Shown here one piece after another: positions 7,617-14,361 of a stretch of DNA of 64,000 nt (the first letter of the stretch is position 1; each line of letters starts with the position of its first letter). Source of the DNA: Euzebya pacifica (GTDB taxonomy: Bacteria > Actinomycetota > Nitriliruptoria > Euzebyales > Euzebyaceae); assembly GCF_003344865.1 (NCBI RefSeq), contig NZ_CP031165.1, forward strand, positions 496,001-560,000, written 5' to 3'. Under the pieces are notes generated by a model, which was not told where the DNA came from, did no database searches, and saw only the letters and a list, made by a program, of their open reading frames with translations. Made by a program: the position numbers and the translations under genes.

Positions 7617-10577
7617 TCAGCGGCGGGCGGCGGAGGAGGGGACGCGGCGAGGGGGAGTGGTGCCGACCTGCACGGCGAGGGCCACGGCGTGGGCCCAGTC
7701 CAGCTCGGCCCCCTCGGCCAGGGCTCGTTCCAGCGCCGGGGCGGGCAGCACGCCGGTGACCAGCTCGCGCTGCCGGGGACCGTCGATGGGATCCATGCGG
7801 GCGGGGTGGAAGCCGACGCGGGCCCCCAGACGGTCCACGGCCCCGAGCAGGACGCCACCCTCGTAGTGACGGCCGAGCTCGGCCGCGATGGACCCCATCG
7901 TGTGCAGGGCGGTGAGGGTGGAGGAGCGGTCGCCCTGCTCGGCCAACCGGCGGGTCGCCTCGGCGAGCAACGGGCCGGCCTCGACGGCTCGACCCTCGTC
8001 GAGGAGGATCTTGGCCAGGATCCAGCCGGACGACGCCCATACGTAGGTGTTCTCCCAGCGGACCGCGCGCTCGCGCGACCGCTCGAGCACCGCCACGGCA
8101 TCAGCGATGCGGCCCTGCGACCGGCGTACCTGACCACGGACCATGTCGACCTCGGCCAGGACCCACTCGGGCACGTCGATGGACTCGGCGACGTCGAGCA
8201 GCTCGTCGGCCACGTCGGCGTTGCCGAACGCCGCCTCGAAGTAGGCCAGGTAGGTGCGGGACAGCGACGCGAGCACACCGCTGCCCGACGGCTCGCCCAG
8301 CGCCACCGCCTGGGTGATCCGCCGATGGGCCGTGGGCAGGTCGCCCGCGAGGTAGGCCCCCTGTGACCGACCGACGAGCGCCTGGACCAGGTCAGCGGCG
8401 GCCACCGTCGCCCGGCCCAGGCGAACCGTGCCGTCCCCGAGCGGTTCGGGGTCCTCCTCCAGCAGCCGGTCGAGCCATCGGTTCCCCTCCGTGACCTGTC
8501 CGAGCCTGAACCAGGCCCACGACAGGTCGCCACAGATCCGCAGGGCCGTCTCGACATCGCCGGTCGCGTCGCAGTGGGTCAGGGCCGCGCGGACGTTGTC
8601 GCGTTCGGCGATCGCGACGTCCCAGCGGGTGTCCCGGCCCAGGTAGGCATCGGCCACGCCCTCCGCGACCTCGGCCATCCACGCGGCGTGTCGGGCGGCA
8701 AGCGTCCCCCAGGCATCCTCGCCCACGTGCTCGCGGCAGTAGTCGCGGATCGTCTGCAGGACCCGGAAGCGACGGCCGCCGGCCACGTCCACCGGCATGA
8801 CGAGGGACTTGTCGACCAGCTGCGTCAGCACCGCCGCGGTGGTGCCGAGCCGGCCCCCCGCCACGGCGGTCAGGGCATCGAGGTCGCAGCCGCCGGCGAA
8901 CACCGCGGCGGCATGCAGCACCTCGCGCTGGGCCGTCGTCAGCGGCCGGTAGGACCAGTCGATCGCCGCCGCCATCGTGCGGTGTCGCGGTGCACTTCCC
9001 CGGCCGCCGTCGCCGAGCAGCGCGAAGCGGTCCTCGACCAGCCCGTCGATCTGGGCCAGCGACAGCGCCGACAGCCTGGCGGCGGCGAGCTCGATGGCGA
9101 GCGGTATGCCGTCGAGCGCCCGGCAGATGCGTTGCACGATCGGTCGGGTCCGGTCGTCGAGGACGAAGTCCGGGTCGACCAGGGCGGCTCGATCGGCGAA
9201 CAGCAGCTCGGCCTCCCCCACCTCGTCCGCCACGCCCGCGGCGAGGGGAGGGATGACGAGGACACGTTCCCCGGGCACGCCCAGCGGCTCACGGCTGGTC
9301 GCGACGATCGAGATCTCCGAGCACGCGCCGAGCAGCTCGGCGGCGACGGCCGCGGCGGCGTCAATGACGTGCTCGCAGTTGTCCAGCACCACCACCGCTC
9401 GACAGCCGCACATCGCAGCGATGACCGCGGACATGGGGTCGGTGGCGACGGCGGCGACACCGATCGCCTGCGCGAGCGTGGCCGGCACCATCGCCGGATC
9501 GGTCACCCCGGCCAGCTCGATCAGCCACGGTCCGTCCGGCAGCCGGGGACGAAGCCGTCGCACCGACTCCAGCGCCAGCCGGGTCTTGCCGGCACCGCCG
9601 ACGCCGGTGAGGGTCAGCAGGCGGGCGGTCGAGGACAGCCGCTGTACCTGCTCCAGCTGCGCGGTGCGGCCGACGAACGTGGTCAGCGGGATCGGGACGG
9701 CGCGGCCGGCCGACCCCTCCAGCGCCGTCGACCGGACCGCGGGTGCCGGCCCCATCTCGAGTCCACGGTCGGGCCCGTCCATCGTGATGGTGACGGGGGT
9801 GGCCGACGCGGACGGCACACCCAGCGGGTCGCCCTCGAGCAGGTCGGGATCCTGCTGCAGCACGGCCCGGTGGATGCGCTGCACCTCCGGCCCGGGGTCG
9901 ATCCCGAGGGTGTCGGCGAGGACGACGCGAAGGGTGTCGAAGCGCTGCAGCGCCTCGGCCTGCCGCTGGTCACGGTAGGCCGCCACCATCAGCAGGGCGG
10001 TGACCTGCTCATCGGTCGGCGCTCGGCTGGCCACGACGCCGAGGCTGTCGCGCACGAGGTCGTGGCGACCGGCAACCATCCGGGCTCGACCCCGCAACAC
10101 CTCGAGCTCCAGGCGGCGAGCGGTCAGCCCCTCCGCGGCGGGAACGGCGAACGGCAGGGCGACCACGTCGCCGAGCGCCTCGCCCCGCCAACGGGCGAGC
10201 GCGTCGTCGGCCAGCCGCTCGGCCTCAGCGGGTTCGTGGGTGATGGCGGCCCTGGCCAGCAGCAGGAGATCGGCCACCGCCAGCGCATCCACGGCCGTGG
10301 TCGGCACGTCGAGGGTGTAGCCACCCGTGACCCGCGGGAGCGTCGCCTGTCCGAGCGCCGCACGAAGGCGAGAGACGTAGGCCCGCAGGGTGCCCTCGGC
10401 GGTCGGCGGTGGCTGCTCGCCCCAGAGGTCGACCAGCAGGCGCTCCGCCGGCACCAGCGAACCGGCCTCGAGCGCCAGGGCGGCGAGGACACCACGAGGC
10501 ATCCGACCGCCGAGCCCGACCTCGGCTCCGTCGATGGTGGCGATGACCGGTCCGAGCAGGTGCACGCGCACCGCCAC
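7617..10577 (-). CDS. SARP/AfsR-type transcriptional regulator with NB-ARC ATPase and TPR-like C-terminus
   Basis: About 986 residues. Domain order: an OmpR-like winged-helix DNA-binding domain at residues 1-90 (VRVHLLGPV, ending in YVSRLRAALG), a bacterial transcriptional-activation (BTAD) helical domain at ~95-240, and an NB-ARC ATPase with Walker A TGVGGAGKTRLAL near residue 325 and VVVLDNCEH. Helical TPR-like repeats run from ~600 to the end. This is the large SARP architecture of Streptomyces AfsR-type regulators, which bind heptameric direct repeats with 11-bp periodicity. Exactly such repeats lie at 10749 and 11595. The start is one of two close GTGs (10577 or 10571); no Shine-Dalgarno is visible. 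It probably activates the divergent gene at 10863 and the lipoprotein-CWB2 pair. Confidence 0.88.
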   Translation of the reverse strand: MAVRVHLLGPVIATIDGAEVGLGGRMPRGVLAALALEAGSLVPAERLLVDLWGEQPPPTAEGTLRAYVSRLRAALGQATLPRVTGGYTLDVPTTAVDALAVADLLLLARAAITHEPAEAERLADDALARWRGEALGDVVALPFAVPAAEGLTARRLELEVLRGRARMVAGRHDLVRDSLGVVASRAPTDEQVTALLMVAAYRDQRQAEALQRFDTLRVVLADTLGIDPGPEVQRIHRAVLQQDPDLLEGDPLGVPSASATPVTITMDGPDRGLEMGPAPAVRSTALEGSAGRAVPIPLTTFVGRTAQLEQVQRLSSTARLLTLTGVGGAGKTRLALESVRRLRPRLPDGPWLIELAGVTDPAMVPATLAQAIGVAAVATDPMSAVIAAMCGCRAVVVLDNCEHVIDAAAAVAAELLGACSEISIVATSREPLGVPGERVLVIPPLAAGVADEVGEAELLFADRAALVDPDFVLDDRTRPIVQRICRALDGIPLAIELAAARLSALSLAQIDGLVEDRFALLGDGGRGSAPRHRTMAAAIDWSYRPLTTAQREVLHAAAVFAGGCDLDALTAVAGGRLGTTAAVLTQLVDKSLVMPVDVAGGRRFRVLQTIRDYCREHVGEDAWGTLAARHAAWMAEVAEGVADAYLGRDTRWDVAIAERDNVRAALTHCDATGDVETALRICGDLSWAWFRLGQVTEGNRWLDRLLEEDPEPLGDGTVRLGRATVAAADLVQALVGRSQGAYLAGDLPTAHRRITQAVALGEPSGSGVLASLSRTYLAYFEAAFGNADVADELLDVAESIDVPEWVLAEVDMVRGQVRRSQGRIADAVAVLERSRERAVRWENTYVWASSGWILAKILLDEGRAVEAGPLLAEATRRLAEQGDRSSTLTALHTMGSIAAELGRHYEGGVLLGAVDRLGARVGFHPARMDPIDGPRQRELVTGVLPAPALERALAEGAELDWAHAVALAVQVGTTPPRRVPSSAARR

Positions 10578-10748
10578 CGAACCGGAATGGTCAAGATTCG
10601 CTGTGGACAACGCGCTTCCTCGCACGACGCCCGAAGGACCCCTTGTCGTCTGCTGACGACAGTCCACCGTGGACCGGCTGGACGCCTCGATCCTAGATCG
10701 GTGTCTCCCATGGGGCGAAGGGGAATTTTCGGGGCGGTCGTGGTCGAC

Positions 10749-10766
10749 GTTGCAGCGACGTTGCAG
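10749..10766 (+). promoter_or_regulatory. Candidate SARP-binding direct repeat
   Basis: GTTGCAG-CGAC-GTTGCAG: an exact heptamer direct repeat with a 4-bp spacer (11-bp period), the geometry known for SARP operators. It lies in the 285-bp gap between the SARP gene (minus) and the gene at 10863 (plus). No good -10 is seen 8 bp downstream on either strand, so orientation is open. The rest of the gap holds no gene that I can see. Confidence 0.6.
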
Positions 10767-10862
10767 GGGAGTGGGGAGACGGGATCGCCGGAAGGGGGGT
10801 GGCGTCCGTCGGGCACAGTGCCGGAAGCCGGGTCGTCGGGGCCCGGGAGACCTGGAGCTGCT

Positions 10863-11519
10863 GTGCCCGTCCTGCTCACCGACCTCCCACTCGTCCTCGG
10901 CGAAATGGCCGATCACCTTCCCCTCAGCACCAAGCTGGTGGTCGGCGGCCGATCCGTGATCGAGGTCGACGTCGACCGGCCGTGCCGACTCGGTCCCCGG
11001 GTTCGTGGCCTCCTGCTGTCCGTCGTGGTCGCCCAGCTCGCGCAGCAGGGCTGTCTGTCGTTCGGCACGACGCTGGGGGAGTGCGTGGCGCGGCGCACGC
11101 TGCCCACCGACATCGACCCGGACCTGACCGTGGCGTCGCTGCTGACCGACATCGCCGAACCGGCCACACCCACGTCGACCTCGGCCGCACTGCTCGGGCG
11201 CGTGGTCGCTGCCGTGTCGGGACAGCGCGTCGGCCGTGTCGTCGCCGACATCGTCACCGAACCCCTCGGCATGACCGCAACCCGCTGGGAGGAGGGGTGG
11301 ACGTCGACCGCCGCGGACCTGACCCGGCTGGTGTCCTCGACGCGATGGGCCGAGGCCCGGGTCCGGGGCGGCTGGACGCCCGAACCGGGGACCGCCCGCA
11401 CCGGCGCCGCAGACCACCCCACCGCCGGGCTCTGGCGGAACGACGACCTCGACGTCTCCGTCGGCTACTGCGGTGACGGCCGAGCCCTCCTGGCGTTGCT
11501 CGACCACCTCGCCGGCTGA
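10863..11519 (+). CDS. Beta-lactamase-fold (serine hydrolase family) protein lacking visible catalytic motifs
   Basis: A 218-residue protein from GTG 10863, which has GGAG 5 nt upstream. Several stretches resemble class C beta-lactamase-like hydrolases (COG1680): VVAQLAQQGCLSF at residues ~55-70, LTVASLLTDIAEP, then VVAAVSGQRVGRVVADIVT followed by EPLGMTATRW and WTSTAADLTRLVSS. The expected nucleophile motif SxxK before the first block is absent (LGPRVRG instead), and YxN is replaced by TSTSA. It therefore looks like a catalytically dead or heavily eroded member. It is divergent from the SARP gene and shares the heptamer-repeat region, so it is probably a SARP target. Also possible is a decaying pseudogene, though the frame is fully open. 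Confidence 0.6.
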   Translation: MPVLLTDLPLVLGEMADHLPLSTKLVVGGRSVIEVDVDRPCRLGPRVRGLLLSVVVAQLAQQGCLSFGTTLGECVARRTLPTDIDPDLTVASLLTDIAEPATPTSTSAALLGRVVAAVSGQRVGRVVADIVTEPLGMTATRWEEGWTSTAADLTRLVSSTRWAEARVRGGWTPEPGTARTGAADHPTAGLWRNDDLDVSVGYCGDGRALLALLDHLAG

Positions 11520-11534
11520 CCCTGACGGGTGGCC

Positions 11535-11568
11535 GGCCCGACAGAACGCCCGGCCCGACAGAACGCCC
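11535..11568 (+). repeat. 17-bp tandem duplication after a stop codon
   Basis: GGCCCGACAGAACGCCC occurs twice head to tail, 15 nt after the stop of the beta-lactamase-fold gene. It resembles the short tandem duplications 3' of yaaA (16495) and after the GNAT gene (28937). Confidence 0.8.
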
Positions 11569-11594
11569 CGGGATCGATTGCACGCGATGGCGGC

Positions 11595-11612
11595 GGCGTT
11601 GCACCCCGGTTG
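11595..11612 (+). promoter_or_regulatory. Candidate SARP-binding direct repeat upstream of the lipoprotein gene
   Basis: GTTGCAC-CCCG-GTTGCAC: heptamer direct repeat with a 4-bp spacer, sharing the GTTGCA core and exact spacing of the site at 10749. It lies 130 bp before the lipoprotein start at 11743. Confidence 0.6.
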
Positions 11613-11742
11613 CACCCGCCAACGAGCCGTCGAGGGGGTGGTCGGGGCTCCGTACGGTCTCCCACGTCGCCATCCGAGCCGGCCTGCACCGCCCGTCCGG
11701 AGGGCGACACAAGACCTCCCCCTCACCGCATCGGAGACCCCT

Positions 11743-12657: not shown

Positions 12658-14361
12658 ATGACCCCGCACGACCACTTCAACGCCCTCGTCGCCCTCGAGC
12701 GGCCCATCGCAACCCTCAACGACGGACGCGGCGCCGACCCTCCCGGCCGGCTCCACCAGGCCCGATCCCCACGACGTCGTCGTCGGGTCGGCGTGGGCGC
12801 CGCCATGCTGACCACCATCGTGGCGGCGGCTGTGCTCGTCTCCGCCCCCACGACCTCACGCGCGTCCGTGCCCGGCGTGGACTGGACCAACCTCCCCGCG
12901 GAGTCCGTCGACCTGACCAGCGGCTGGGCGGGTGGCGCCTGCGACGGGGACGCGCCCGTCCTGTGCACCACCCTCGACGGCGAGGACCAGGGCATCGTCG
13001 AACACCTCGAATGGCTGGTGGAGGAGGGTGACCTCGCCGCCGACCTCGACGCCAGCATCCCGGTGCGCCAGGCGCTCGCCGCCGAGGCCGGCCGGTACCA
13101 CGAGGCCATCCGTGCCGACCGGGGCACCGTCTGCCCCGACCTGTCCTACATCGCCGAGCCCACCGTGGGCGCGACGGTCGCCGGGCTCGACGGGATCCGC
13201 TACGGCTTCGAGATGTTCGAGGGCAACCGTGTCGTCGAGCGGACCGTCGGCTTCATGACCGTTCGCCAGGCCGCACACGGCGCCGTCGTCGACGTCGTCG
13301 CCGCGACCGAGATCAACGAGGGAGCCTGCATCTCCGACGAGGGGCTGCAGCCCTTCCGCGACGGCAGCCTGGCGGACTTCGAGCCGGTCCTGGCCCAGCT
13401 GGTCGCCCGCTCCACGTTCGGGACGGGCAGCCGGCCCGTTCCCCAGCTGACCGAGGACCTGACGGTGCCGATGGGCGACCGCGTGGCGGTTGCTGTCGCG
13501 ATGTCCCAGCTGGCCCGCCCCGAGGACGGTGGCACCGAGACGGTGCTGATCGCCCGTGACGACCAGTTCGCCGACGCCCTGGCGTCCGGTGGCCTGCAGG
13601 GGGCGCTCGACGCCCCGTTGCTGCTGACCGGCGACGACCACCTCGACGAGCGGGTCGCCGCGGAGATCGGCCGGCTCGGCGCGGTCAGGGCGATCGTGCT
13701 CGGCGGCGAGGAGGCCGTCCCCGAACGGATCGCCACGGAGCTGCGGGGCCTGGCGCTGACCGTCGAGCGGGTTGCCGGAGCCGACCGCATCGCCACCTCG
13801 CTCGCCATCGCCGACATGATCGGCCCGCGAATCGAACAGGTCGTCCTGGTCCGTGCCCACGGTGACGAGACCGACCCCAGCCGCGCGTGGGCCGACGCGC
13901 TGGCCGCGGGCGCCACCGCGGCGGCGCTGGAGGCCCCGGTCGTGCTGACCACCGAGGACGTGCTCGACCCCCGGGTGGCCGGCTGGCTGCAGGCGGAGGT
14001 CATGGACAACGGACTGCAGTCGGTGCTCGTCGCCGGGGGCGAGGCCGCGATCGACCGTCCCGTCCTGCAGGAGATCGTCGAGATCGGCCTCGGCGTCGAC
14101 CGTGCCCACGGCGACGACCGGGCCGGGACCGCGGTGGAGCTGGCCCGTCGGCGGGGCATGCCTGCGGCAGAGCTGGTCGACACGGTCATCGTCGTCGACG
14201 GCAGCGACTGGGCCGGCGGAATGACGGCGGCGCTGGCGTCGGACCGCCTGGTGGCGCCCGTGGTGCTGACCGGCAACACGATGCCGGCCGCCACGACGGC
14301 CTTCGTCGGGGACGCCGACGTGGATGTCGTCTGCATCGCACGCGCCGCGGCGTGTCGATGA
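12658..14361 (+). CDS. CWB2 cell-wall-binding-repeat protein with unique N-terminal domain
   Basis: A 567-residue protein; AAGGAG precedes the ATG. It has an unusually long N-terminal region (~45 residues, ending in RRRRR) before a hydrophobic helix (MLTTIVAAAVLVSAPTTSRA) that serves as signal peptide or anchor. Residues ~65-260 form a domain with four cysteines (GGACDGD, VLCTTL, TVCPDL, GACISDE) that I do not recognise. Residues ~275-567 are three CWB2 repeats (RDDQFADAL, VLGGEEAVP, LVAGGEAAID). It is expected outside the membrane, bound to the envelope. It follows the lipoprotein gene by 51 bases behind the heptamer repeat at 11595 and ends before a bidirectional terminator. Confidence 0.85.
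   Translation: MTPHDHFNALVALERPIATLNDGRGADPPGRLHQARSPRRRRRVGVGAAMLTTIVAAAVLVSAPTTSRASVPGVDWTNLPAESVDLTSGWAGGACDGDAPVLCTTLDGEDQGIVEHLEWLVEEGDLAADLDASIPVRQALAAEAGRYHEAIRADRGTVCPDLSYIAEPTVGATVAGLDGIRYGFEMFEGNRVVERTVGFMTVRQAAHGAVVDVVAATEINEGACISDEGLQPFRDGSLADFEPVLAQLVARSTFGTGSRPVPQLTEDLTVPMGDRVAVAVAMSQLARPEDGGTETVLIARDDQFADALASGGLQGALDAPLLLTGDDHLDERVAAEIGRLGAVRAIVLGGEEAVPERIATELRGLALTVERVAGADRIATSLAIADMIGPRIEQVVLVRAHGDETDPSRAWADALAAGATAAALEAPVVLTTEDVLDPRVAGWLQAEVMDNGLQSVLVAGGEAAIDRPVLQEIVEIGLGVDRAHGDDRAGTAVELARRRGMPAAELVDTVIVVDGSDWAGGMTAALASDRLVAPVVLTGNTMPAATTAFVGDADVDVVCIARAAACR

Follow-up and report, generated by a model that had tools for sequence, protein, structure and literature searches.

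According to the classical SARP rule, the 3' repeat of the operator lies 8 bp from the -10 element and overlaps the -35 element (PMC10936776). AfsR of Streptomyces coelicolor sits in the spacer between the -35 and -10 elements, with the afs box centred at -29.5, and the afsS -10 element is CACTGT (PMC10936776). For PimR, a SARP-LAL protein of Streptomyces natalensis acting on pimM, class I activation has been proposed from one promoter (PMC3367932, PMC5930380). EmbR of Mycobacterium tuberculosis is also a member of the SARP family; its role lies outside antibiotic clusters, and it affects envelope lipids and the morphology of the cells (PMC9239209). Such roles of SARPs are thus known; the operator described below is SARP-like in repeat length and period and deviates in position.

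The DNA analysed here, called the window, is a stretch of 64,000 nucleotides from the genome of Euzebya pacifica (6.37 Mb, 2 contigs; G000), which was compared with three congeners (G001, G002 and G003) and with a member of another family of the same order (G006, 4.6 Mb). It contains the gene for a large AfsR-like SARP (Table 1), whose start codon is GTG at 10625 or 10577. By domain tests the protein is a SARP, with an N-terminal OmpR-type winged helix followed by a BTAD: the Pfam models BTAD (PF03704, 1.9e-25) and Trans_reg_C (PF00486, 1.8e-6) both match above cut-off, while AAA and TPR models give matches below cut-off only. A phmmer search retrieved the AfsR cryo-EM chains (6e-31) and EmbR (2e-27); the homology to AfsR covers 33-650, from the DNA-binding domain through the NOD. 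A contig search for relatives returned only distant SARPs, with about 33-41% identity in the best segment and no close named orthologue.

The protein shares with AfsR the DNA-binding domain and BTAD and probably also the NOD and TPR parts of its architecture, and the system shares with AfsR/afsS the 11-bp direct repeats (PMC10936776). In its recognition helix, RAYVSRLRA, the AfsR base contact R92 and the phosphate contacts R87, S91 and R94 are kept, whereas T88, another base contact, and K95 are replaced by Ala (PMC10936776). The candidate -10 element of site 1, CACAGT, may be compared with that of afsS (PMC10936776). The afs box at -29.5 differs in position from the operator block of the window, predicted at about -50 to -78. 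PimR/pimM is similar in having three heptamers with 4-bp spacers, placed in the intergenic region beside the SARP gene and free of -35 overlap; its heptamer, however, is CGGCAAG, its single operator lies some 93 nt from the start site, and it controls the regulator of a polyene cluster (PMC3367932, PMC5930380). Conversely, the Euzebya system has GTTGCA(G/C) heptamers, a fixed 37-bp gap in nine promoters, predicted surface-gene targets and an AfsR-like C-terminus. EmbR, a DNA-binding and BTAD protein of the same family with a role outside classical antibiotic clusters, differs in carrying an FHA domain instead of NOD-TPR, and the portion of PMC9239209 considered describes no comparable heptamer regulon of lipoprotein and CWB2 genes.

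Heptamer repeats and a shared promoter element

Site 1 (GTTGCAG-CGAC-GTTGCAG) and site 2 are the only exact matches to GTTGCA-N5-GTTGCA in the window, and both are direct heptamer repeats at the 11-bp period of SARP operators, which have a period of 11 or 22 bp. On these points the preliminary description was accurate, as it was on the sequence and the coordinates of site 1 (10749-10766); it also gave the correct sequence of site 2, but placed it at 11595-11612, 3 positions from its true location at 11598-11615. Its repeats stand, while the pair that it saw in them is usually a triplet of heptamers, and it missed both the outlying ATTGCAC and the TACGGT fixed in position downstream of site 2.

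Table 1. Features of the SARP locus and of two distant promoters in Euzebya pacifica; positions are those of the window unless a contig is named
Feature	Position	Strand	Remarks
Large SARP (AfsR-like)	7617-10625	-	N-terminal OmpR-type winged helix, then BTAD, probable NOD-type ATPase and a weakly TPR-like C-terminus
Site 1, exact 11-bp tandem	10745-10766	+	CGACGTTGCAG x2; heptamers 10749-10755 and 10760-10766; kept in G002 and G001
Site 1, degenerate third heptamer position	10771-10777	+	GTGGGGA; GTTGCCC in G001
Candidate -10 of divergent gene	10814-10819	+	CACAGT; 36 bp past third heptamer position of site 1
Divergent 218-aa protein	10863-11519	+	Weak similarity to beta-lactamases (PF00144 under cut-off); signal peptide not seen
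Outlying heptamer	11577-11583	+	ATTGCAC; 21 bp upstream of site 2 tandem; equal spacing in G002, as GTTGCAG
Site 2	11598-11615	+	GTTGCAC-CCCG-GTTGCAC; kept in G002; as four heptamers in G001
-10-like element	11653-11658	+	TACGGT; begins exactly 37 bp past last site 2 heptamer
Predicted lipoprotein, 287 aa	11743-12606	+	Lipobox-like GAAGC; no Pfam domain; putative target
CWB2 cell-wall-binding protein	12658-14361	+	PF04122, 2.2e-28; putative target
Site 3, third exact match	G000:C1:4745484-4745500	-	4.2 Mb from sites 1 and 2
Site 4, fourth promoter	G000:C1:4747525		New combined-pattern match; precedes 237-aa membrane protein

Pattern-based scans were extended to whole genomes. The exact pattern GTTGCA-N5-GTTGCA occurs three times in the 6.37 Mb of G000, each time upstream of a gene, against two matches for the reversed-pattern control; two of the three are sites 1 and 2, which lie 849 bp apart. 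The relaxed form GTTGCA-N5-GYTGCA gives six matches: four promoter regions account for five, and the sixth lies within an open frame. The abundance in coding regions that the preliminary description had named as a refutation is therefore not seen, and an origin of the repeats by chance or as coding repeats was rejected on the scan and the shuffle controls.

The third exact match, site 3, belongs to the in-register triplet GTTGCAG-GGGG-GTTGCAG-GCCG-GCTGCAC, upstream of a gene for a secreted lipoprotein followed by a CWB2 gene, an arrangement that repeats the gene types found behind site 2. At sites 2 and 3 alike, exactly 37 bp separate the last heptamer from a TACGGT, and no conserved -35 was found between the last heptamer of site 2 and TACGGT. 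In the usual architecture, three GTTGCA-type heptamers with an 11-bp period are separated by exactly 37 bp from a -10-like TAC(G/C)GT, the -10 elements being assigned by consensus only.

From sites 2 and 3 the combined pattern YTGCA-N6-YTGCA-N38-TACSGT was fixed; its 37-bp gap was chosen after viewing these two sites, and the remaining matches constitute independent support. An independent-base estimate from composition gives a chance expectation of 0.005 exact matches per genome. Three exact matches were found in G000, including the new site 4, three in G002, two exact and one with a single mismatch in G001, and none in G003; the reversed controls gave 0, 1, 0 and 0, respectively. The promoter pair of sites 3 and 4 is present in G002 in equal relative order.

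Alignment of nine promoters from three genomes reveals a constant 37-bp gap, with strong conservation only at the heptamer positions and at T, A and T of the -10 element, and no visible -35. The sequence of the gap has diverged, with 17 of 37 positions identical between G000 and G001 at site 2. The constancy of its length suggests that helical phase and distance matter. Site 1 fits the shared architecture less well: its third heptamer is degenerate, and its -10 is weaker; in the alignment, the gap to the -10-like element is 37 bp in G002 (CACAGT) and 36 bp in G001 (GACAGT).

Predicted targets and their distribution in Euzebya

Apart from the divergent protein, the putative targets in G000 look exported or membrane-bound. 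The divergent gene had been described as having a beta-lactamase fold, of which a weak similarity to PF00144 is retained (25.8 bits, cut-off 27). A beta-lactamase enzyme is unlikely, given this sub-threshold score and the lack of a conserved S-x-x-K: among three orthologues, neither an S-x-x-K nor even a single Lys is invariant. The single-sequence AlphaFold model of the protein is unusable (pLDDT 38.7). Its orthologues adjoin the SARP gene in G002 (66%) and G001 (40%), and none is present in G003.

Orthologues of the window lipoprotein stand behind the same operator in G002 and G001, and in the window the CWB2 gene is likely part of the lipoprotein operon. In the family of the unlinked lipoprotein behind site 3, one His, one Cys, a second His and one Met are invariant in 8 homologues; this pattern, together with a weak profile match to type 1 copper proteins (E 0.0013, no Pfam model above cut-off), indicates that it may be a blue-copper (cupredoxin) protein. 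Downstream of this unlinked lipoprotein-CWB2 operon are genes for ZnuA and a Fur-family (Zur-like) protein, identified by Pfam (L141 3096-4653, G000:C1:4741095-4742652); in G002, a gene that is ZnuA-like by sequence also follows the operon. A link to zinc was considered, but the ZnuA and Fur-family genes are not taken as members of the regulon, since none was seen in the G001 region examined.

Orthologues of the SARP, accompanied by the divergent gene and both operators, are found in G002 (80%) and G001 (60%). The arrangement of the targets is different in G001: the first gene behind operator 2 is the orthologue of the unlinked copper-type lipoprotein of G000, with that of the window lipoprotein next to it, and the CWB2 partner of the copper-type protein stands alone on contig C19, where it has a separate GTTGCAG-GGGG-GTTGCAG followed, after a gap of 38, by TAGGGT. 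The copper-type lipoprotein and CWB2 genes, though separated, each keep an element, so that the element follows its genes. G003 lacks orthologues of the SARP, the divergent protein, the copper-type lipoprotein and the small membrane protein, gives no match to the combined pattern, and has only paralogues of the window lipoprotein; this co-occurrence of SARP and element concerns four genomes of one genus.

Two further repeats were observed in G001. At G001:C38:73922 (L047), GTTGCAG-CCCC-GTTGCAG lies upstream of a gene for a predicted membrane-anchored protein, with no TACSGT at the 37-bp gap; this gene is possibly a further target. At G001:C74:23161-23221 (L138), two heptamers, 37 bp and TACCGT precede the gene for a predicted soluble protein of unknown family. 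Since the full element is present there, the G001 regulon may include a gene unrelated to the cell surface.

Probable assignment of the repeats and proposed mode of activation

The best explanation, with a probability of roughly 0.8, is that the large SARP encoded beside the repeats uses them as operators and would thereby activate a small set of surface genes. It builds on the sequence elements, their conservation, their spacing and their co-occurrence with the SARP, from which SARP binding, activation, promoter identity and physiological role are deduced. The regulon of surface genes predicted in the preliminary description gains strong support from the genome scans and two related genomes, and from the same element at further predicted promoters it probably extends beyond the window, to the unlinked lipoprotein-CWB2 operon of site 3 and the membrane protein of site 4. 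The predicted surface targets stand; the role, which had been called unusual, has a precedent in the envelope effects of a SARP-family protein, EmbR (PMC9239209).

Nine BTAD genes are present in G000 (12 in G003), so the assignment to this particular SARP rests on adjacency and co-occurrence. GTTGCA repeats adjoin three SARP lineages: the orthologue, in three genomes; a paralogue (39%) forming a cupin-SARP pair in G001, with GTCGCAG-GTTGCAG-GTAGCAG and the same 37-bp gap; and a homologue in G006. In the latter genome the single exact match in 4.6 Mb is a perfect triplet directly upstream of the best homologue of the window SARP (38-39% identity), with no TACSGT at the 37-bp gap. This triplet (L140 4991-5018, G006:C1:3540990-3541017) is located between the SARP homologue and a divergent gene, sodium:solute symporter-like by sequence, which is followed by a proline dehydrogenase gene (PF01619); the arrangement suggests SARP control of proline use in that family.

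These three separate lineages also bear on the idea that another OmpR-family protein, a response regulator of the PhoP or MtrA type, binds the 7+4 repeats, the SARP being merely a neighbour or a target. Regulators of the OmpR type commonly bind well upstream of the -10 element, which counts in favour of such a protein. Moreover, PhoP and AfsR recognise a common site in the afsS promoter (reviewed in PMC10972967), and OmpR-type proteins can thus share direct-repeat sites. This is nevertheless unlikely, not only for the recurrence of the repeats beside SARPs, but also because G003 is without the element together with the SARP orthologue, and because the strict matches in G000 concern envelope genes only and no phosphate-type genes. 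Repeats arisen by chance, or inherited without function, are highly improbable: exact 7+4+7 repeats are indeed common in the 72% GC window (22 positions against 13.5 expected in shuffles), but two of them at most 1 kb apart with a common 6-bp core were found in only one of 200 dinucleotide shuffles, heptamers and gap length have been retained across a diverging gap sequence, and relocated genes still carry the element. It is conceivable, if rather doubtful, that site 1 serves the SARP gene itself, instead of or besides the divergent gene, and such autoregulation is compatible with the main explanation. The site stands between the two genes, and G002 has kept the TAGGAT at 10695-10690, a -10-like element for the SARP gene on the minus strand; on the other hand, the orientation of the heptamers and the 36-37 bp gap to the conserved CACAGT/GACAGT match the other operators.

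With the SARP as the binding protein, adjacent protomers would each occupy one GTTGCA-type heptamer, usually three in all, and the 11-bp distance between heptamers would place them on one face of the helix. The bound SARP would activate weak promoters, with a TACGGT -10 and no recognisable -35; the predicted targets are the divergent protein, the window lipoprotein-CWB2 pair, the unlinked copper-type lipoprotein-CWB2 operon and the small membrane protein. If TAC(G/C)GT is the -10, the 37-bp gap of the nine promoters departs from the classical SARP rule, the operator being about 29 bp further upstream than a distance of 8 bp would put it; PimR is the known precedent for such a departure. The last heptamer would then end 37 bp before the -10, at about -50 from the start site, and activation would most likely come from upstream of the -35, via contacts such as those with alpha-CTD (class I-like), instead of occupancy of the -35/-10 spacer. 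Because of this upstream position, a PimR-like (class I) activation is likelier than an AfsR-like sigma adaptation.

Heptamer triplets upstream of other large SARPs

A broader proposal has about equal chances of being right or wrong: that this SARP lineage activates at a fixed, -35-independent distance of 37 bp and is dedicated to copper and cell-wall surface proteins, and that large SARPs often carry clade-specific upstream triplets which reveal their operator code. The predicted regulon lies outside secondary metabolism, with named promoters and one geometry repeated nine times, and class I activation by a SARP, suggested for PimR from one promoter, can now be put to a direct test; clade-specific triplets would offer a route from the sequence of a SARP to its operator.

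In a side test, upstream regions of 300 bp from 121 large-SARP homologues, a set that was not de-replicated, were searched for heptamer triplets with an 11-bp period and compared with dinucleotide shuffles. Triplets reached p<=0.01 in 27 of these 121 regions; of the control windows, none of the 120 in-gene and 3 of the 142 far-upstream ones did so. Owing to its degenerate third heptamer, the upstream region of the window SARP itself stayed short of this threshold. Examples of triplet-bearing loci are L076, L091, L104 (Nocardia), L114, L131, L090, L081, L062, L064, L159 and L155. The heptamer varies by clade, being for example CTGACAC in several Nocardia and CTGTCGG in several streptomycetes and relatives, and two other SARPs of G000 are associated with the heptamers GGTGCAC and GGTTGAG.
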